A stretch of DNA of 6,886 nt, taken from Bacteroidota bacterium. Lineage in GTDB: Bacteria; Bacteroidota; Bacteroidia; Flavobacteriales; Crocinitomicaceae. Both the position numbers and the translations under genes were made by a program. Below the pieces are notes generated by a model. It was not told the DNA's origin. It ran no database searches and saw nothing but the letters and a program-made list of their open reading frames with translations. Each line of letters begins with the position of its first letter. The first letter of the stretch is position 1. Below are positions 1-6,886 of this stretch, in pieces. Location of the stretch: positions 1 through 6,886 of the forward strand of contig JAKQEZ010000053.1 of the NCBI GenBank assembly GCA_029558435.1, in the 5' to 3' direction.

Positions 1-15
1 GTAACCTGCACCTTC

Positions 16-151
16 GCATAACGTTCCGGGTTAATGAAGTGGCGGAAATCGAAGATAATAATTTTACATGGCGGCTCAACCAAAATATAAAAATTAAACA
101 ATCGAGCCGCCAAGCACAAAACCAGCCATTTCATTTAACCCATTGTTATGC
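16..151 (-). repeat. attC-like site 1 (family I), 3' end of the OMP cassette
   Basis: On the plus strand it runs from GCATAAC (16-22) to GTTATGC (145-151). The outer arms pair: CCGGGTTAATGAAGTGGC near 26-43 faces GCCATTTCATTTAACCC near 125-141. An inner arm TGGCGGCTC (69-77) pairs with GAGCCGCCA (105-113), leaving an AT-rich loop. The last ten bases GTTATGCCCA (145-154) are the reverse complement of 882-891, the other end of the same unit. Its arms are nearly identical to those of site 5, so the two are recent relatives although they follow unrelated genes. Confidence 0.8.
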
Positions 152-215
152 CCAGTGACACACTTCCTGCTCGAAATAAGTTAAATTTAGCTTGCCGCAC
201 ATTTTCTTCGTTCTA

Positions 216-821
216 CTATTTACTAAATTTGTAGGACAATGCGACTTGAAAGTTCAATATTGTTCTATTCTTCTCCGAATCAAACATGTTTTCATCGTAC
301 CTAGGTTTATTGTAAATCCTGAAACAATATTGCGGAGATATCTGAAACCCTAAATCCAATGGTAATTTCAATACTGATAGAAATTTATAGTTAACTGCCA
401 ATCCTGTACAAATGTATTCGCTTTTATATACTTCAATCCAATTAGCAACTTGACCTGTTTGACTTGCATTGACTTCAGAGTAATTTACTATTGGTCCAAT
501 TCGAATTACGGATTGTTGAAATGATTTTAATTTCCACGACCAATTTACACCTATGTCATAATAATGAAAAGTTGTGATTATTTCATCAGTAGGACATTCA
601 TAACAATCATTAAATTCACCATTCTTTGTAACGACATTGAAATGAAAATTAATTTCTGAATTCTTAAACTTGAGTGGGAAAGAAAATAAAACTCCACCTC
701 CCATTGCGAAATTTGATTTTTTACTTCCGGTATAAATTGATGAACCAATAACTCCAATATTTACAGCATGAGATGGGTTAAAGATAAGCAAGCAAAAAAC
801 AGCTAAAAAAAAGTGTTTCAT
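216..821 (-). CDS. Predicted small outer-membrane beta-barrel protein
   Basis: This 201-residue protein is probably exported and inserted in the outer membrane; its exact role is unknown. The ATG at 821 is preferred because it starts directly on a signal peptide (MKHFFLAVF, hydrophobic core, cleavage likely after SHA near residue 19); an upstream in-frame TTG at 845 would put eight extra residues in front of it. The mature part alternates short amphipathic strands and glycine/polar turns and ends in a final aromatic strand (VALSYKF), as in OmpW- or OMP_b-brl-like barrels of Bacteroidota. A Cys-x-x-Cys pair (DCYEC) and two later cysteines could form disulphides. It is the only gene of its cassette, about 65 bp ahead of attC-like site 1 and about 60 bp after site 2. 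No Shine-Dalgarno sequence is visible. The barrel call rests on composition and pattern, not on a recognised family signature. Confidence 0.65.
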   Translation of the reverse strand: MKHFFLAVFCLLIFNPSHAVNIGVIGSSIYTGSKKSNFAMGGGVLFSFPLKFKNSEINFHFNVVTKNGEFNDCYECPTDEIITTFHYYDIGVNWSWKLKSFQQSVIRIGPIVNYSEVNASQTGQVANWIEVYKSEYICTGLAVNYKFLSVLKLPLDLGFQISPQYCFRIYNKPRYDENMFDSEKNRTILNFQVALSYKFSK

Positions 822-884
822 TTGATTAAACCTTAAAAATTCCAATTGTTACTAACGGAAAGCAGCACGGCTTATTGTCATTGG

Positions 885-1016
885 GCATAACGTTTTGCAG
901 CTACAAGAAGTTGGCGATTTAGAAGCACAAAACTGTCGGCAAATAAAAAATTAATTACGAAGACGAAAGCTATGTTTAACCAAAGAACCGCCAATTTATT
1001 GTAGGTGCTGTTACCT
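885..1016 (-). repeat. attC-like site 2 (family II), 3' end of the YD-like protein cassette
   Basis: It runs from GCATAAC (885-891) to GTTACCT (1010-1016). The arm GCAGCTACAAGAAGTTGGCG at 897-916 is largely complementary to the arm ending near 1009, which reads CGCCAATTTATTGTAGGTGC. The 3' box GTTACCTGC (1010-1018) matches the reverse complement of 2019-2027 at the other end of the same unit. The site shares its arms with site 3. Confidence 0.8.
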
Positions 1017-1050
1017 GCTGCCTTATTTCTTGTCGATATATTGTCCATAT

Positions 1051-1977
1051 TCACATTTTTTCAGTTGTTGTAAAAATTACTTTTCTTCCTTCGCACCAAT
1101 ATGGTTTTCTTTTTACCACCGTCAACTTTTTTTGATTGTCAGATGAAACTAACGTAAGAAAATAATTCTCACACTTATCTGTTGTCAAAAGTTTTTTATT
1201 GTCAATAAGCACTTGACGAATTAAGTGCCTAATTGAACTGTAATCTGTCGAAACGAATGAATATTCGGTTTCTATGTCACACTTTGTGTTTATATGTTTT
1301 TCTTTTGATGAAAGTATTTCCATTTCATCAACTTTTTCTGATATCAAACTGTCTTTGTCGTTGTATGTATAGATAGTAATTTGGGCCATTGAGTCATTTG
1401 GTTCACTTTCTCGCAGTTCTTTTACTTTTCTGTTTTTACTGTCATATACATTGAGAACTCTGAAATTAAATCTTTTAGCACCAGCAGCATCGTCAACGAA
1501 AATTGTTTGTATCTCAATTTTACCTGTGCTTATTGAACTGTCACGATACTCATAAAACCATTCAAAACTTGGGTCATAAGATGATTCAGCATTGAAGTCC
1601 TTCATTCCATAATAAATAATTCTTCCAAGATTGTCATAATTGGTTTGGTATGTCATTGATGGCTTGCCTTCTTTATAATGATTGCTTATACTGTCTCGTC
1701 CATTTATTCCAAAATACTCAATCTGTATTGACGGTTCACTTTTCTTATTGAAGCCAGAGTAAGAGATTGTTTTTACAATAGATTTCTGTTCGTTTGAATA
1801 TTGCACAATACTATCAGCGAAGAATAGCGTTAAACTGTCACCGAAAGAGTAAGCAAAGTTGTATGTCCTGCTAATTGCCCATGTCTTGATTTGCTTTCCG
1901 TCTGCTTCAAAGAATGATTGTCCCAGCAATTGTGCCCTAATTAAAAATTGAATTATTGTCAGAAAAAACAGTTTCAT
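1051..1977 (-). CDS. Secreted hypothetical protein with YD-like repeats
   Basis: The 308-residue product is not assigned to a function. It opens with a hydrophobic export signal (MKLFFLTIIQFLI, cleavage probably near LLGQ at residues 18-20), so it should leave the cytoplasm. The middle is rich in short beta-strand units of the form Y-D/N-x-x-x-R/S-x-I/V: YDNLGRIIYY, YDSKNRKVKE and YNDKDSLISE. These resemble the degenerate RHS/YD or MORN-like repeats common in hypothetical envelope proteins of Bacteroidota. Three cysteines lie in the C-terminal 80 residues. It fills its cassette alone: the start is about 42 bp after the R' box of site 3 and the stop about 35 bp before site 2. There is no Shine-Dalgarno motif, and no catalytic motif can be seen. 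Confidence 0.75.
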   Translation of the reverse strand: MKLFFLTIIQFLIRAQLLGQSFFEADGKQIKTWAISRTYNFAYSFGDSLTLFFADSIVQYSNEQKSIVKTISYSGFNKKSEPSIQIEYFGINGRDSISNHYKEGKPSMTYQTNYDNLGRIIYYGMKDFNAESSYDPSFEWFYEYRDSSISTGKIEIQTIFVDDAAGAKRFNFRVLNVYDSKNRKVKELRESEPNDSMAQITIYTYNDKDSLISEKVDEMEILSSKEKHINTKCDIETEYSFVSTDYSSIRHLIRQVLIDNKKLLTTDKCENYFLTLVSSDNQKKLTVVKRKPYWCEGRKVIFTTTEKM

Positions 1978-2020
1978 TTTTTATTGTTGATTCGTTTTAA
2001 GTTCTGTCGCCAAAGGTTGC

Positions 2021-2152
2021 AGGTAACGGTTTGCGGCTACAAGAAGTTGGCGATTTCGAAGCACAAAGCTGTCTGCCAGCAGGAAACTTGATACGAAGAA
2101 CAAAGCTTCATTTAACCACAAAACCGCCAATTTCTTGTAGCTGCTGTTAGCG
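2021..2152 (-). repeat. attC-like site 3 (family II), 3' end of the DinB cassette
   Basis: It runs from AGGTAAC (2021-2027) to GTTAGCG (2146-2152). The arm GGCTACAAGAAGTTGGCG pairs almost perfectly with CGCCAATTTCTTGTAGC, one mismatch apart, making it the cleanest palindrome of the window. Its 3' box GTTAGCGGT (2146-2154) is the reverse complement of 2771-2779 at the far end of the DinB unit. The DinB stop codon is only about 10 bp away, a tight gene-to-attC spacing that is usual in integron cassettes. Confidence 0.82.
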
Positions 2153-2161
2153 GTTCGGTTT

Positions 2162-2734
2162 TTATTCTTTTTTGTCATTTAGAAATTCGTCTGTAAAGTG
2201 TCCTCTTTGTTTTTGTTTTGAAAACTTGTCTTTGTTATACGATTGTGAATTCCCTTTTGGAATTGATAGCGAAATCCAGCCATTTTCTGCAAGCATTTTT
2301 CCCAAAAATACAATTTGTCCAATGTGATAAGGATAATGTGCGAGTTGTCGATTTATTGCTTCGGTTACGGTGTGTCCTTGATTACGTATGTAAATAATTT
2401 TGTCAAGGTCGTCCGTTGTCAAAGAGTTGATTGCATTAAAAAGACAATTCCAACCTTCGTTCCACTTGTCTAAAAGTTCTTCTCTATTTTTAATGTCGTT
2501 TTCAAATTCTGCGTCCCTGTTGCGAAATTCTTTTTCTCCGTCTGAAGTTAAAAAGTCTGTCCAACGTGAAAGCATATTTCCCCAAATGTGTTTTACAATT
2601 GTCGCAATGCTGTTGCTGTCGTCATTGTATTGCCAAAACAATTTGTCATCCTGTAATTGCGAAAACGTTTTGTCGCCAAGCATTTTGTAGTACTCAAATT
2701 GTTTTTTTACACTGTCTAAATAGTCGTTTGTCAT
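2162..2734 (-). CDS. DUF1572/DinB-superfamily protein (putative metal-dependent)
   Basis: This is a 190-residue four-helix-bundle protein of the DinB/YfiT superfamily, closest by pattern to DUF1572. Such proteins are cytoplasmic, often bind a divalent metal through three histidines, and in some families act as thiol-dependent transferases; the substrate here is unknown. The expected triad is visible: H49 in VKHIWGNMLSRW and the HxxxH pair H133/H137 in AHYPYHIGQI. Length and helix order fit the family. I chose the ATG at 2734; an in-frame ATG at 2815 would add 27 residues read through attC-like site 4 and is not credible. The C-terminus (about residues 160-190) is polar and probably disordered. 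It is the only gene of its cassette. The family call is strong; a role in stress or detoxification would be inference only. Confidence 0.88.
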   Translation of the reverse strand: MTNDYLDSVKKQFEYYKMLGDKTFSQLQDDKLFWQYNDDSNSIATIVKHIWGNMLSRWTDFLTSDGEKEFRNRDAEFENDIKNREELLDKWNEGWNCLFNAINSLTTDDLDKIIYIRNQGHTVTEAINRQLAHYPYHIGQIVFLGKMLAENGWISLSIPKGNSQSYNKDKFSKQKQRGHFTDEFLNDKKE

Positions 2735-2772
2735 AATTTCATATCTTTTTGATTTGTCAGTCCTAAACTGAC

Positions 2773-2904
2773 CGCTAACGTTTTGCCGCTTTGCGAAGGC
2801 GGGGATTTTTAGCACTAAACTTCATTAGATGCACAAAGCTTGAATTTAGCACTTCATTGTCATAGAAGCACGAAACCCCCGCTTTTGCAAAACGGCTGTT
2901 AGTG
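2773..2904 (-). repeat. attC-like site 4 (family III), 3' end of the RT cassette
   Basis: It runs from CGCTAAC (2773-2779) to GTTAGTG (2898-2904). The terminal arm CGTTTTGC pairs with GCAAAACG, with three extra bases (gct) next to the GTTA end, the asymmetry typical of attC sites beside R''. A second arm GGCGGGG near 2798 pairs with CCCCCGC near 2875. The 3' box GTTAGTGGC (2898-2906) is the reverse complement of 4849-4857 at the other end of the RT unit. The RT stop codon lies about 10 bp away. Confidence 0.82.
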
Positions 2905-2914
2905 GCTGGGCTTC

Positions 2915-4459
2915 TCATTTGTTTTCAATTTTATTCATCAATTCGTGAAATTTTTTCCAATGTCGTTTTAGTTGCCCGCCAATTTTATTGTCAGGAATTG
3001 TCTTTTCAGCAAGCTTTGCATAAGTAATGAAATTACCCCAATCATATTTATGTGACAAAATGAATAAATCCGATTTAATGGGGTGTCTTTGATACATTCT
3101 TCTTCTTGTTGCACCAACATGAGTGAATTTTTTGTAAAGTTTGGTCTTAAATACTTGTCCTTTGGTGGCTGTCTTATTATGATAGCTGTAAAATCGACTT
3201 CTAGCAAAAGAACGCTTCATTTTTCGATAATAGCTTGCAACACTTGAACTCTTAATTAATGTGTTGAACCCGTCAAATTGAAAACCTAAGTACTCAAATA
3301 AAGTATTATTCTGTAGTTTGCAAGTGTTTAAATTTTTCTCAAAACAATGATGTCTATCGGTTTTATTGTCAAAAGGGAAATGAAAGACTTGTGTTTTACT
3401 TATTTGAATTTCTAGCTTAAAGTCTTTTATTGTCCTTAAAAAATGTTCGATGATTATATCTTCATATTCAATTGGACAAATTGCAACCATATCGTCAGAA
3501 TACCTTTGATAAACTCCGCCAATTTTTTTTAATAGCTCATTTGCTTTGGTGTCAAAGTCAATCATATAAACGTTTGCAAGAGTTGCGCTAATTGGTGAAC
3601 CTTGAGGAATTCCCTTTTTTCTTAACTCTTTTCTGCTTTCATCTAAATACTTATTCGCCTTAATAAGCTTTAGCTTTCTTATTTCATCAATATTCTCTTT
3701 TGAGCAGTAAGCAACGGCTCTTTTATTACGCAAATAGTTTTTCTTTTTAATCTTTATTTCTTTGAAGTTTTTTGGTTTTCGTTCAACTATTATCTGATTT
3801 TTATAATGGTCGAAAAGGTCGTCTTCTTCAATGTAAGAGAACTTTGAAATATTGCGGAAGACATTATAATGGTTTGGTGGTAAGTCTACTCCTGAATTGA
3901 TTATTCTTTTCCAATTTTTCTTGAGTAATTGATGGTCAAGATTGTCAAAAAAGCTTTTTATATCGAATGTTATTGCTACAAGGTCAGTCCCCTTGTTCAG
4001 TTTTATGAATTGAAATACATCATTTGCAAAATCAACATTGCATTTATTTCTTGACCTTTCCTTTTCAGGGTTTAATTTAATCTTTCTATATGCAGTAATA
4101 CAGTTGGTTATATCTAAATCTTTAATTGTTTTTTCGTATGCAGTTGAAAGCAATTCAGAATAGTAACTAAAAACATTAGAGTCAATATGATTAGAAAAGT
4201 ATATTTCTCTTTCTTTAGTAGTTGGCTTTCTTAGAGTTGAACGTGTCCCGTCATGGCAAATCTCCTTTCGGAATTTTCGTACTTTTAACTGTCTATGGAT
4301 AAAAGGATAAAATGCATGTTTTGCGATTGCATCTTTGTCTTTCACATACGGTTCTATCCATGCTCTATCTTTTGGCTCAAGTTGTAAGCCAACATGTGGA
4401 TAGCGTTTTAGCCTAAACCAATCTTTATTTTTCTTCTCTTTGTGAATTACAGATTTCAT
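2915..4459 (-). CDS. Reverse transcriptase, probable antiviral UG/DRT type
   Basis: This 514-residue RNA-directed DNA polymerase has intact catalytic motifs. Motif A is FDIKSFFDNLDH (D166 catalytic), motif B is GIPQGSPISATLAN (283-296), motif C is RYSDDMVAIC (D322/D323), a motif-D-like ISKTQVFHF follows near 353-361, and EYLGFQFDG (389-397) is the motif E/RT7 region. The N-terminus (about 12-130) carries WFRLKRYPHVG, KHAFYPFIHR and an AYRKI segment, a lead unlike group II intron or retron RTs. A lysine-rich insertion of about 50-60 residues separates motifs A and B. After residue 400 the chain is basic and helical, with no maturase X, HNH or protease domain. Together with the structured segment just upstream, this fits the single-gene 'unknown group' RTs that act in phage defence (DRT2 and DRT9 pair with an upstream ncRNA). 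RT activity is near certain; the defence role and exact class are inference. Its AT-rich composition is like its neighbours'. Confidence 0.9.
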   Translation of the reverse strand: MKSVIHKEKKNKDWFRLKRYPHVGLQLEPKDRAWIEPYVKDKDAIAKHAFYPFIHRQLKVRKFRKEICHDGTRSTLRKPTTKEREIYFSNHIDSNVFSYYSELLSTAYEKTIKDLDITNCITAYRKIKLNPEKERSRNKCNVDFANDVFQFIKLNKGTDLVAITFDIKSFFDNLDHQLLKKNWKRIINSGVDLPPNHYNVFRNISKFSYIEEDDLFDHYKNQIIVERKPKNFKEIKIKKKNYLRNKRAVAYCSKENIDEIRKLKLIKANKYLDESRKELRKKGIPQGSPISATLANVYMIDFDTKANELLKKIGGVYQRYSDDMVAICPIEYEDIIIEHFLRTIKDFKLEIQISKTQVFHFPFDNKTDRHHCFEKNLNTCKLQNNTLFEYLGFQFDGFNTLIKSSSVASYYRKMKRSFARSRFYSYHNKTATKGQVFKTKLYKKFTHVGATRRRMYQRHPIKSDLFILSHKYDWGNFITYAKLAEKTIPDNKIGGQLKRHWKKFHELMNKIENK

Positions 4460-4463
4460 AATA

Positions 4464-4778
4464 GAAATGAGGGGTAAGTGGTTAGACGGGGCAAGCTTTT
4501 ACATTAATTTTCATTAACGGAATAGTACATGCATTGCACAACACTCTGTTGAATGTCGCCCCGATTTCCCTTTCGGGAAGAATTCTATTCGTAACTTTGT
4601 CCATAATAATAAATATCATGAAGTCAATCAGAACAGTACAGATGATTCTCAACATGCTTGAACTTTCTTGCGATTGTCCTTGCATAATTGGAATTCCTGC
4701 TCCGTAAGCAACGTATGTCTTGCTTAGCTGTGGATGATAAAACGTACTATTCAGCGAACCACTTACCTTTCTCATTTC
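4464..4778 (-). ncRNA. Candidate RT-associated structured ncRNA
   Basis: Read on the minus strand, the ends pair: GAAATGAG (4778-4771) with CTCATTTC (4471-4464), then GGTAAGTGGTT (4767-4757) with AACCACTTACC (4483-4473), 19 bp split by one small internal loop. A second long-range stem pairs GAATAGTACGT (4752-4742) with ATGTACTATTC (4530-4520). Local hairpins are TAAGCAA/TTGCTTA (4726-4705), TTCCC-GAAA-GGGAA (4579-4566), CATT+CAACA/TGTTG+AATG (4555-4532) and CGTTAAT-GAAA-ATTAATG (4519-4502). CGGGGCGA (4563-4556) can pair with TTGCCCCG (4494-4487), crossing the second stem as a pseudoknot. These elements abut without conflict and end five bases before the RT start codon. A template or structural RNA for the RT is the best reading. 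A 97-codon open frame (4775-4482) spans it; an ordinary small protein is the alternative. Fold energies were not computed. Confidence 0.68.
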
Positions 4779-4812
4779 ATGTCTTTAATTTTTTTATTTT
4801 CATTTAGTTTAT

Positions 4813-4837
4813 TAGTCGGTCTGTCTTGGTAGTCGGT
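4813..4837 (-). promoter_or_regulatory. Short tandem direct repeat ahead of the RT-associated RNA
   Basis: ACCGACTA occurs twice on the minus strand (4837-4830 and 4820-4813), 17 nt apart from start to start, in the cassette leader between the attC-like box and the structured RNA. The spacing is between one and two helix turns, so it could be a paired operator or part of a promoter. I see no convincing Bacteroidota -7 box (TAnnTTTG), so the regulatory role is a guess. Confidence 0.25.
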
Positions 4838-4850
4838 TTTTTAGCCTTGC

Positions 4851-4988
4851 CACTAACGTTCCGGGTTAATGAAGTGGCGGAGTTCGAAGCTACAACTTTT
4901 CTTTGGCGGCTCAAACAACTATCTATAAAATTAACAGATCGAGCCGCCAAGCAATGTCCCAGCCATTTCATTTAACCCAATGTTAGCG
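4851..4988 (-). repeat. attC-like site 5 (family I), 3' end of the LRR cassette
   Basis: It runs from CACTAAC (4851-4857) to GTTAGCG (4982-4988). The outer arms CCGGGTTAATGAAGTGGC and CAGCCATTTCATTTAACCC pair imperfectly, and the inner arm TTGGCGGCTC pairs with GAGCCGCCAA. Its 3' box GTTAGCGGCA (4982-4991) is the reverse complement of 6691-6700 at the far end of the LRR unit. Arm sequences are almost the same as site 1, some 4.8 kb away. Confidence 0.82.
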
Positions 4989-5003
4989 GCAGGTTTTTTA
5001 ACG

Positions 5004-6584
5004 TTATTGTTTAACCAGCAAGCCAGTTTTTAGCACTCCTTTCGAGTTCTTCAATTCATAAAAGTAGATCCCGTCTGCAAGTGTCTGTGTGTTTAGGGTC
5101 GTGGTGTTTGTAACTGATTGTTTCATTAATTGCTGTCCAAAAACGTTGTAGAGCGAAATAGTTGTCGATTCGTTGTTCTCCAGGAAGAAAGTTAACTGAT
5201 TTGAAAAAGGGTTCGGGAAACAAACAATTTTATTTAAATGATTATTCTCATTTTCAAGTCCTGTAGTGCATAAAACAAAGTTAATGTTTGGACTGCCAGG
5301 TGCATTATAGCTAATTGATGGTGGCGGAAATGGCAAAGTTCTAACAAACAAAGTGCTTAGATTGCCGTTGTCAACTAAAGTCATCACTTGAAGATTGGGG
5401 AGTTGGCAAATGTCTAATGTGGTTAATAATGAGTCATCGATGCAAACGAATGTCATCAACGACGGACTAACCAAAACCAGAGTGTCAAATAAATTATGGC
5501 CATCATGAATCGACATAAGGCTTGGAGCACCTAATAAATCAAGTTCGGTCAATCTATTTGACTCGCAATACATATATTTCAATGACACGTTGTTATTTAA
5601 TATTACTTTTTCTACTTGGGAATTCACAAAATTCAAATGTGTAAGTGCAGTACACCCTGAAACATCTAAAGTGTCTAATGAGTTACTACCGCAATTCAAG
5701 CTCTGGAGTTTTGTCATATTGGTTACAGTTAATGAGCTTAATTGAGTCCCAATACAATTCAATTTCTCTAAATTCGGAGCTAATCTTGCATCAAGGCTAG
5801 GCAGCAAATTAGCTCCACAATCCACTTCGGTTAACAGATTCAGATTAGAAAGGTTGATCGTTTGTAATTGATTGCCTCTTATGTCAATTCTATCCAGTTT
5901 TAAATTATTGCTAAAATCAATACTGGCAATCTGATTCCTTGGACAATACAAATAGTTTAAGTTAACCAAGGTAGATAAATCAAGAGCTTGAAAGTTATTA
6001 TCGGAGCAGAATAATGTTTCCAATAGTGTATCATTCGTCAGACTAAGAGTACTAAGAGAACATTGACTTACATTCGCATCCTCAAGATAAAATTTGTTTG
6101 AAAGGTCTAGCGTTGTCAAAGGATTACTCCCGCAGCTTATGGAGCTCAGGAGAGGATTATTAGAAAGATTTAAATTTACCAAATCGTTGGAATAGGTCCA
6201 CAACTCTTTTAGCAAAGTATTTCCTGAAATGTTTAAGCTATTTATATTATTCATACTGCAATCCAAGTATTCTAAGAAAAGATTATTACTAAGATCTAGC
6301 ATCACTATTTTATTTCCCGCACATGTTAAAGCCCGGAGATTAATAAAAGCTTCAATACCCGTTAAGTCTGCTATCTTACCATCGAACCCCCAAATTGGAG
6401 ACTGCAATTGTAAGCTGTCAACAAGAGCAGCTTCAGCATAACTAATTTCTCCATCACTGTTTGTATCTACTCCCAAAAAGATTAGTCTTAGCTTGAGGGT
6501 GTCATCCGGTATAATTACGTTCTGACATTTTACTTGGAATAGAAAAGAACTCAAAAAAATCGCTAACAAAAAAATACGTTTCAT
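5004..6584 (-). CDS. Secreted leucine-rich-repeat protein with T9SS sorting domain
   Basis: This surface or secreted protein is about 526 residues from the ATG at 6584; an adjacent ATG at 6587 would give 527. Using the 527 numbering, residues 1-21 are a signal peptide (KRIFLLAIFLSSFLF, cut near VKCQ). An EF-hand-like calcium loop DTNSDGEISYAE sits at 41-52. About 16 repeats of 21 residues follow from 84 to about 420, with the pattern LxxLxCxxNxLxxLDLSxNxx, which should form a curved solenoid for binding a protein or glycan partner. Residues 457-527 are a type IX secretion C-terminal domain (FPNPFSNQ..., YNVFGQ, LADGIYFYEL, K at the end), so the protein is exported through the outer membrane and probably attached to the surface. 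It is the lone gene of its cassette, with a leader of about 110 bp after site 6 that may hold its own promoter. The domain calls are firm; the binding partner is unknown. Confidence 0.93.
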   Translation of the reverse strand: MKRIFLLAIFLSSFLFQVKCQNVIIPDDTLKLRLIFLGVDTNSDGEISYAEAALVDSLQLQSPIWGFDGKIADLTGIEAFINLRALTCAGNKIVMLDLSNNLFLEYLDCSMNNINSLNISGNTLLKELWTYSNDLVNLNLSNNPLLSSISCGSNPLTTLDLSNKFYLEDANVSQCSLSTLSLTNDTLLETLFCSDNNFQALDLSTLVNLNYLYCPRNQIASIDFSNNLKLDRIDIRGNQLQTINLSNLNLLTEVDCGANLLPSLDARLAPNLEKLNCIGTQLSSLTVTNMTKLQSLNCGSNSLDTLDVSGCTALTHLNFVNSQVEKVILNNNVSLKYMYCESNRLTELDLLGAPSLMSIHDGHNLFDTLVLVSPSLMTFVCIDDSLLTTLDICQLPNLQVMTLVDNGNLSTLFVRTLPFPPPSISYNAPGSPNINFVLCTTGLENENNHLNKIVCFPNPFSNQLTFFLENNESTTISLYNVFGQQLMKQSVTNTTTLNTQTLADGIYFYELKNSKGVLKTGLLVKQ

Positions 6585-6693
6585 CATGTTTATTTTACAA
6601 CTAATTTGAATTTATCTATAATTCTTGCTTCAAGATTAATGTCTAGATTAAAGGTTGGTTAAGTGAGCCTGATTGGGTATGCGTAAAACTTGC

Positions 6694-6825
6694 CGCTAAC
6701 GTTTGGCAGATTTGCGATGGGCGGGTTTTTCACCACATATGTTGAGGCGGAGAACTGAACTTTCGGGTACCACTAAACTGTCTGTGGAGCACGAAACCCC
6801 GCCTATTGCAAATGTGCTGTTATAA
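6694..6825 (-). repeat. attC-like site 6 (family III), 3' end of the incomplete right-hand cassette
   Basis: It runs from CGCTAAC (6694-6700) to GTTATAA (6819-6825). The inner arm GGCGGG near 6720 pairs with CCCGCC near 6798, and GGCAGATTTGC faces GCAAATGTGC, as in site 4. The 3' box GTTATAAGCC (6819-6828) should recur in reverse complement at the 5' end of the next cassette, beyond the window. Confidence 0.78.
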
Positions 6826-6846
6826 GCCGTTTTTTCTGCCAATTGG

Positions 6847-6886
6847 TTAATCATATGTCCATTCTGTCAAGGTCAATAAGTTTGAT
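6847..6886 (-). CDS. Possible C-terminal end of the next cassette gene (partial)
   Basis: By analogy with the other units, the gene belonging to attC-like site 6 should end just to its right. Two minus-strand frames run in from the edge and stop close to the site: one reads ...IKLIDLDRMDI and stops at 6853-6851, the other ...SNLLTLTEWTYD and stops at 6849-6847. The third frame stops early. Too little is present to choose between them or to name the product. Confidence 0.35.
   Translation of the reverse strand, partial: SNLLTLTEWTYD

Follow-up and report, generated by a model that had tools for sequence, protein, structure and literature searches.

The window analysed here, a stretch of 6,886 nucleotides from a Bacteroidota bacterium (Flavobacteriales, Crocinitomicaceae; assembly GCA_029558435.1, contig JAKQEZ010000053.1, positions 1 to 6,886), is a row of integron cassettes with their genes on the minus strand. 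One of these cassettes carries the gene for a reverse transcriptase (RT) of the DRT2 family, preceded by a predicted structured non-coding RNA (ncRNA). Defence by an RT and an ncRNA through synthesis of a gene is already known. In KpnDRT2, the DRT2 (UG2) system of Klebsiella pneumoniae, two ACA words flank the template; the repeat unit extends from the first ACA as far as the second, and the gene that results, neo, is antisense to the RNA (PMC11100668, PMC12039810). For the window, we consider it very probable that the RT copies a 111-nt template in the ncRNA into tandem repeats, of which the antisense strand would be a stop-free, likely toxic neo, with a Bacteroidota-type promoter rebuilt at the junctions. 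In the sequence, this is suggested by the family of the RT, the conservation and covariation of the RNA, a pair of GAATTC words, an open antisense frame and promoter-like boxes that arise only at the junction; the remainder is transposed from KpnDRT2.

The reverse transcriptase and the upstream RNA

2915–4459, minus strand: DRT2-family reverse transcriptase, 514 amino acids (PADLOC, NCBIfam, PDB sequence, fold, tree)
4464–4778, minus strand: predicted DRT2 ncRNA of about 315 nt, with a closing stem between 4757–4778 and 4464–4483 (folding, alignment)
4742–4752, minus strand: 5' arm GAATAGTACGT of a long-range covarying helix (RNAalifold, covariation counts)
4520–4530, minus strand: 3' arm ATGTACTATTC of the same helix (RNAalifold, covariation counts)

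The RT is intact, as the first-pass annotation of this DNA had described it, with GIPQGSP at residues 283–289 and YSDD at residues 320–323. RVT_1 is its sole Pfam match at E ≤ 0.1. The PADLOC Drt2 model PDLC03757 covers residues 6–510 with an E-value of 1.3e-136 and a second Drt2 model gives 3.9e-93; RT_UG17 is the next family (6e-20), and the DRT9 model gives 1.2e-16. The best NCBIfam model is also Drt2 (NF041746), with 345 bits, under its equivalog cut-off of 390; the group II intron model scores 68 bits against a cut-off of 300 and retron St85 44 bits against 235. By sequence, the best relative in the PDB is Drt2, entry 9c0i (2e-52), which we take to be KpnDRT2. An AlphaFold2 model of the RT (predicted local distance difference test score 86) has the same entry as its top Foldseek match (E-value 8.5e-35, template modelling (TM) score 0.83 by target, 30% identity), with DRT9 second at 7.5e-11, 24 orders of magnitude behind. 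The whole-fold comparison suggests that the overall fold of the RT is that of a DRT2 RT. A PHROGs scan returned generic RT and polymerase families only.

With Drt2 far ahead by profile, sequence and fold, the enzyme falls outside the group II intron and retron families, as had been expected. It is a DRT2 RT of a divergent branch and no new DRT type; the undescribed subtype that the first-pass annotation had thought possible does not survive the PADLOC match and the top fold match. The insertion between motifs A and B, on which that idea partly relied, is indeed longer than in 9c0i, but it can in part be aligned to 9c0i and contains residues that are invariant across 43 aligned relatives.

Of 7,998 proteins scored in a protein search, 2,029 are related to the RT at E ≤ 0.001, and the best 120 of these are considered here. 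Presumably 11 of the 12 organism-named relatives among these best 120 of 2,029 are Bacteroidota. Among the matches listed, the closest relative bearing an organism name is from a metagenome-assembled genome of the Flavobacteriales (80–81% identity), in agreement with the Bacteroidota kinship that had been proposed for the RT and its RNA. One protein, P0001, is 98% identical to the RT and represents a cluster of 43 sequences. In a tree confined to 48 DRT2 relatives (no intron, retron or other UG RT; L033, with an internal stop, and L019 and L021–L023, partial matches, were kept out), the window RT groups with proteins of the set found by the protein search, and Psychrobacter and Neisseria RTs join another Bacteroidota RT set; the deep branch order is not firm (82/63, 93/92). 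Relatives at 80–98% identity are known as proteins, and the DNA loci compared all have at most 50% RT identity: nine genome searches (1,978 genome slots, some genomes repeated) gave no locus above 50%, a search of genome contigs gave 11 loci (best 42% identity), and viral contigs gave two (one at 30% identity, one a 73-residue match) and none in a second search.

Four bases separate the end of the RNA segment from the RT start codon (five positions by the earlier count). That a self-closing segment of about 315 nt lies here had been noticed before, and folding of 4460–4853 on the minus strand, flanks included, agrees with it: the minimum is −107.4 kcal/mol (z −6.4), and none of 100 shuffles was as good. 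Rfam gave no match at E ≤ 5. Sequence preceding 18 related RTs (40–50% identity) can be aligned with the RNA, which answers the conservation check proposed earlier. All 19 aligned loci have TACGTTT or TGCGTTT at the 5' side (L017 was excluded from the set, having no TACGTTT motif), and most have, at the 3' side, an AAAG-like block followed by a C-rich motif.

RNAalifold, applied to the outer domains, gave one helix, whose paired arms in the window are GAAUAGUACGU and AUGUACUAUUC. The long-range helix has 11 of 11 pairs in 10 of the 19 loci and 10 of 11 in L031 and L032, with compensating changes; in the remaining seven loci, three to seven of the 11 pairs form, and by eye a single bulged base restores the pairing in L012, L015, L025, L038 and L039, the pairing being ambiguous in L016 and L054. 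In the variable half of the helix, 89 of 114 pairs form, compared with 65 ± 4.8 when the arms are swapped among loci, and none of 5,000 shuffles was as good. Imposing the helix on the window fold costs only 1.3 kcal/mol. Alignment and covariation across the 19 loci point to a structured ncRNA directly upstream of the RT, as in DRT2 systems.

Predicted template, repeat unit and junction promoter

4586–4696, minus strand: predicted template, 111 nt, equal to one repeat unit of 37 codons (border words)
4691–4696, minus strand: 5' template border word GAATTC (longest shared border word)
4580–4585, minus strand: GAATTC as 3' template border word, to which the cDNA end is predicted to re-anneal in the jump (longest shared border word)
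4586–4696, plus strand: predicted neo repeat FVTLSIIINIMKSIRTVQMILNMLELSCDCPCIIGIL, last codon spanning the junction (joined antisense strand)
4592–4599, plus strand: −7-like box TAACTTTG, at the start of the predicted repeat (antisense motif)
4618–4620, plus strand: predicted neo start codon ATG, 18 nt past the −7 box and in the open frame (antisense frame)
4679–4682, plus strand: terminal −33-like CTTG of the predicted repeat; only the joining of repeats places it 20 nt upstream of the −7 box (joined repeats)

GAATTC is the longest word common to both border regions in the window, and its two copies are 111 nt apart. Since GAATTC is repeated across the junction, the concatemer is identical wherever in the word the jump falls. 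The antisense concatemer is stop-free in one frame only, and the predicted unit is divisible by three, as in DRT2. Among the 19 loci, 14 have a single longest border word, which gives a multiple of three and an open antisense concatemer in 11; at least one best border word fits in this way in 16 of the 19. Displacing the two border regions 3,120 times gave averages of 23% for the first count and 6.4 loci for the second; the real values were reached in 28 and 34 of these displacements, respectively. Irrespective of the words, 18 of 19 loci have one antisense frame without stops from one end of the template region to the other, and L024, the remaining locus, is open inside its unit. Dinucleotide shuffles of 18 units left a frame open in 2–43% of cases per locus (18% for the window). 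For unit comparisons, border words were hand-picked among shorter or tied words in L013, L015 and L038; for the L012-type loci, CAATTTC and similar words were later replaced by ATAC(C).

In PMC6847099 and PMC2483708, the Bacteroidota housekeeping promoter is given as TTTG/TANNTTTG (TTTG/TAnnTTTG), and from the numbering in the former, about 19 nt can be reckoned between the −33 and −7 motifs. Promoter-like boxes of this kind would be rebuilt across the junction: in the window, the arrangement TTG-N20-TAACTTTG is present only after joining, and the ATG at 4618 opens only a 29-codon open reading frame (ORF) in the unjoined DNA. A TAnnTTTR box stands at the repeat start, on the antisense strand, in 15 of the 17 units compared first. 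Across the junction, TTG lies 19–20 nt before the box in nine of 15 loci (L013, with its hand-picked word, included) and in none of 15 unjoined; when the 5' border is slid by 2–30 nt, at most five of 15 have this spacing. The six loci without it are L031, L025 and the four of the L012 type. With the ATACC or ATAC words, 16 of 17 loci show TTG-N19–20-box and none of the 17 does so unjoined; with the 5' border slid by 4–40 nt, 1.4 loci do on average and eight at most. The word choice was post hoc for seven of the 17, which makes nine of 15 the less biased figure. In 18 of 18 units, the open frame contains the first ATG after the box, or after the junction in the box-less L034, L035 and L036; 13 of these ATGs have an A at −3. 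Predictions were fixed beforehand for three new loci, L055–L057: all three had the predicted RNA motifs and obeyed the frame rule, and two had the box. These loci exposed ATACC at both borders throughout their subclade (ATAC in L015 and L025).

The predicted repeats are 36–66 residues long, share little sequence between subclades and are hydrophobic, with a grand average of hydropathy of 0.5–1.4 in 18 units. Among codon changes between pairs of L034–L036, 12 of 22, 13 of 21 and 16 of 24 are at the third position; other locus pairs, L031 and L032 apart, were too distant or out of register for such counts. By analogy with KpnDRT2, Neo is likely toxic. A 97-residue ORF along the RNA was considered as neo and rejected, being on the sense strand, while the predicted gene is antisense.

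Several observations weigh against this interpretation. The real pairing of border words beats words swapped among loci only weakly (p 0.046), since AATTTC-like words are common to many loci, and kinship among the loci weakens every probability quoted here. Five of the 19 loci have tied longest words, and the longest-word rule fails in L013, L036 and L037, the shorter ATTTC fitting in L013. In L034–L037, the 3-nt word that restores the fit, ATT, was found post hoc; if it is accepted, these loci have an open 141-nt unit with TTG 19–20 nt before the boxes TATATTGC, TAAATTGC, TATATTGT and TATCTTTA. In the same way, ATAC(C) was adopted for L012, L015, L025, L038, L039, L055 and L056 after the promoter spacing had been seen. 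The TAnnTTTR box is absent from L034–L036 and from L057, a broken copy with an interrupted RT, and TTG is absent from L031; eight of 17 boxes end in TTTA instead of TTTG, and the −33 motif is much less evident in F. johnsoniae, according to PMC6847099. The first-ATG rule failed in two of two new loci: 7 nt past the box, L055 and L056 have an ATG that is out of frame. The comparison of L031 with L032 gave no third-position excess (7 of 23 changes), and no ACA unit was found in L003 and L004, two of the four loci tried outside the branch.

Transposing the KpnDRT2 mechanism to the window, the ncRNA would be transcribed from the cassette, and phage infection would set off priming and copying of the template. 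On reaching the 5' border word, the end of the cDNA would melt and re-anneal to the 3' border word, where a new round would begin. Second-strand synthesis would render the concatemer transcribable by the housekeeping polymerase, and the translated, hydrophobic repeat protein may arrest the infected cell, halting the phage.

In its decayed state, L057 has an altered −7 box (TATCTTGG) next to its interrupted RT, and has kept its border words and its frame.

Other explanations and comparison with known systems

The same RT and ncRNA could act through another product: the single- or double-stranded cDNA repeats may be the effector themselves, the antisense frame remaining untranslated. Tang et al. 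(PMC11100668) leave other mechanisms open for divergent DRT2 branches, where they call neo annotation "more challenging", and effector DNA has precedents in the homopolymer of DRT9 and the tandem-repeat DNA of DRT10, as described in PMC12632851. We consider this unlikely, since a DNA effector needs neither units that are multiples of three (11 of 14 loci), nor an open antisense frame (18 of 19), a first ATG in frame (18 of 20) or promoter-like boxes at the junction. Still less probable is a cassette that is silent and without present function, which would leave the mechanism in the relatives untouched. Integron cassettes are frequently unexpressed, and no clear promoter of the RNA came to light, with no search aimed at one; against this, the RT motifs and RNA features are intact, the near-identical P0001 stands for a whole cluster, and it is the broken L057 that lost its −7 box. 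Finally, the sense ORF (4482–4775, minus strand) could encode a genuine small protein produced along with the RT, the RNA structure being incidental. It spans nearly the full length of the RNA, and a sense frame is open in nine of 18 units; the other nine have stops in all sense frames, the ORF has no PADLOC match and two Pfam matches only, both under cut-off, and the RNA helix covaries, all of which makes a sense protein highly improbable.

The preferred reading, a neo gene antisense to the RNA, keeps most of the KpnDRT2 plan: a single RT gene with an upstream ncRNA, the same overall fold and, as predicted here, a word-flanked template, a unit that is a multiple of three, an antisense stop-free ORF and a promoter across the junction. 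The differences are in the details. The RT is longer (514 residues versus 425), the predicted unit is shorter (111 nt versus 120), the predicted promoter is TTG/TAnnTTTR rather than TTGACA/TATAAT, and the system is housed in an integron cassette, unlike KpnDRT2. The predicted jump word is GAATTC instead of ACA; in the kin it is ATACC, AATTTC or TATTTC among others, 3–7 nt long and differing between subclades. We regard the lack of an ACA-flanked template as marking a variant and not a non-member, because Tang et al. report ACA for KpnDRT2-related homologues and leave divergent clades open.

As a control, drt2 of the Psychrobacter plasmid pP62BP1 (L050) has a single ACA-to-ACA unit of 105 nt with an open antisense frame and a predicted Neo of 35 residues. 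In Treponema (L002), there is one ACA-to-ACA unit of 90 nt, open on the antisense strand, which also bears TATAAT and TTGACA. In a second Bacteroidota DRT2 group of 14 loci (L018, L020, L026–L028, L040–L044, L046–L049), the sequence upstream of the RT is also conserved, but it is distinct and carries different motifs.

Like the window system, DRT9 (UG28) is a class 2 UG RT with an upstream ncRNA, and its RT is the second fold match. Unlike it, DRT9 makes a poly-A homopolymer from a U tract and forms a hexamer; its profile is also far behind that of Drt2. DRT10 (UG17) resembles the window system in that RT and ncRNA yield tandem-repeat cDNA (PMC12632851). The same source gives a SLATT protein as required for DRT10, and RT_UG17 matches the window RT with just 6e-20.

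For one whole Bacteroidota branch of DRT2, it seems likely that jump words and unit lengths evolve freely under two rules only: units stay divisible by three, and the jump puts the −33 box 19–20 nt before the −7 box, so that neo would be visible only to the Bacteroidota sigma factor. In the window, RNA and enzyme are packed in one cassette, and the effector gene and its promoter would be nowhere in the mobile DNA. The literature searched, which excludes most subscription papers, contained neither a decoded neo, or its promoter, from a divergent Bacteroidota DRT2, nor a DRT2 in an integron cassette. For this divergent DRT2 branch, the sequences by themselves yield predictions: of junction, repeat, start codon and promoter in the window, and of the majority of these features in about 15 relatives. 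This suggests a hidden neo gene fitted to the promoter grammar of its host, and an integron that can carry a gene nonexistent as such until it is reverse transcribed.

The integron cassette and its neighbours

2779–4856, minus strand: integron cassette with ncRNA, RT and its own attC (matching boxes GTTAGTGGC/GCCACTAAC)
2769–2906, minus strand: the cassette's own attC, downstream of the RT (box matching, folding)
4849–4988, minus strand: attC belonging to the neighbouring cassette upstream, at which the RT cassette starts (box matching, folding)

The RT and its RNA are contained in an integron gene cassette, with an attC hairpin and matching R boxes at its ends: GTTAGTGGC at 2898–2906 is the exact complement of GCCACTAAC at 4849–4857, and the first-pass annotation was right about these boxes. 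The ends at 2779 and 4856 follow from crossover at G^TT, which we assume from general knowledge of attC sites. Read by eye, matching boxes of at least 9 nt bound all five complete cassettes in the window. Four attC strands were folded and compared with shuffles; three are clear (z −4.35, −3.93 and −4.14) and one is weaker (−1.89). Among the listed ORFs of the window, to which the search was confined, none matched an integrase, and the ORF list, Pfam and PADLOC gave no second gene with a family match inside the RT cassette. Phage-defence genes are already known from integrons.

The cassettes at 216–845 and 1051–1977 (minus strand) encode proteins without a family above cut-off. The product of the adjacent cassette (2162–2815, minus strand) is DUF1572/DinB-like (Pfam, 4.5e-76), and the cassette at 5004–6587 (minus strand) encodes a leucine-rich-repeat protein with a C-terminal sorting domain for type IX secretion, as is typical of Bacteroidota.

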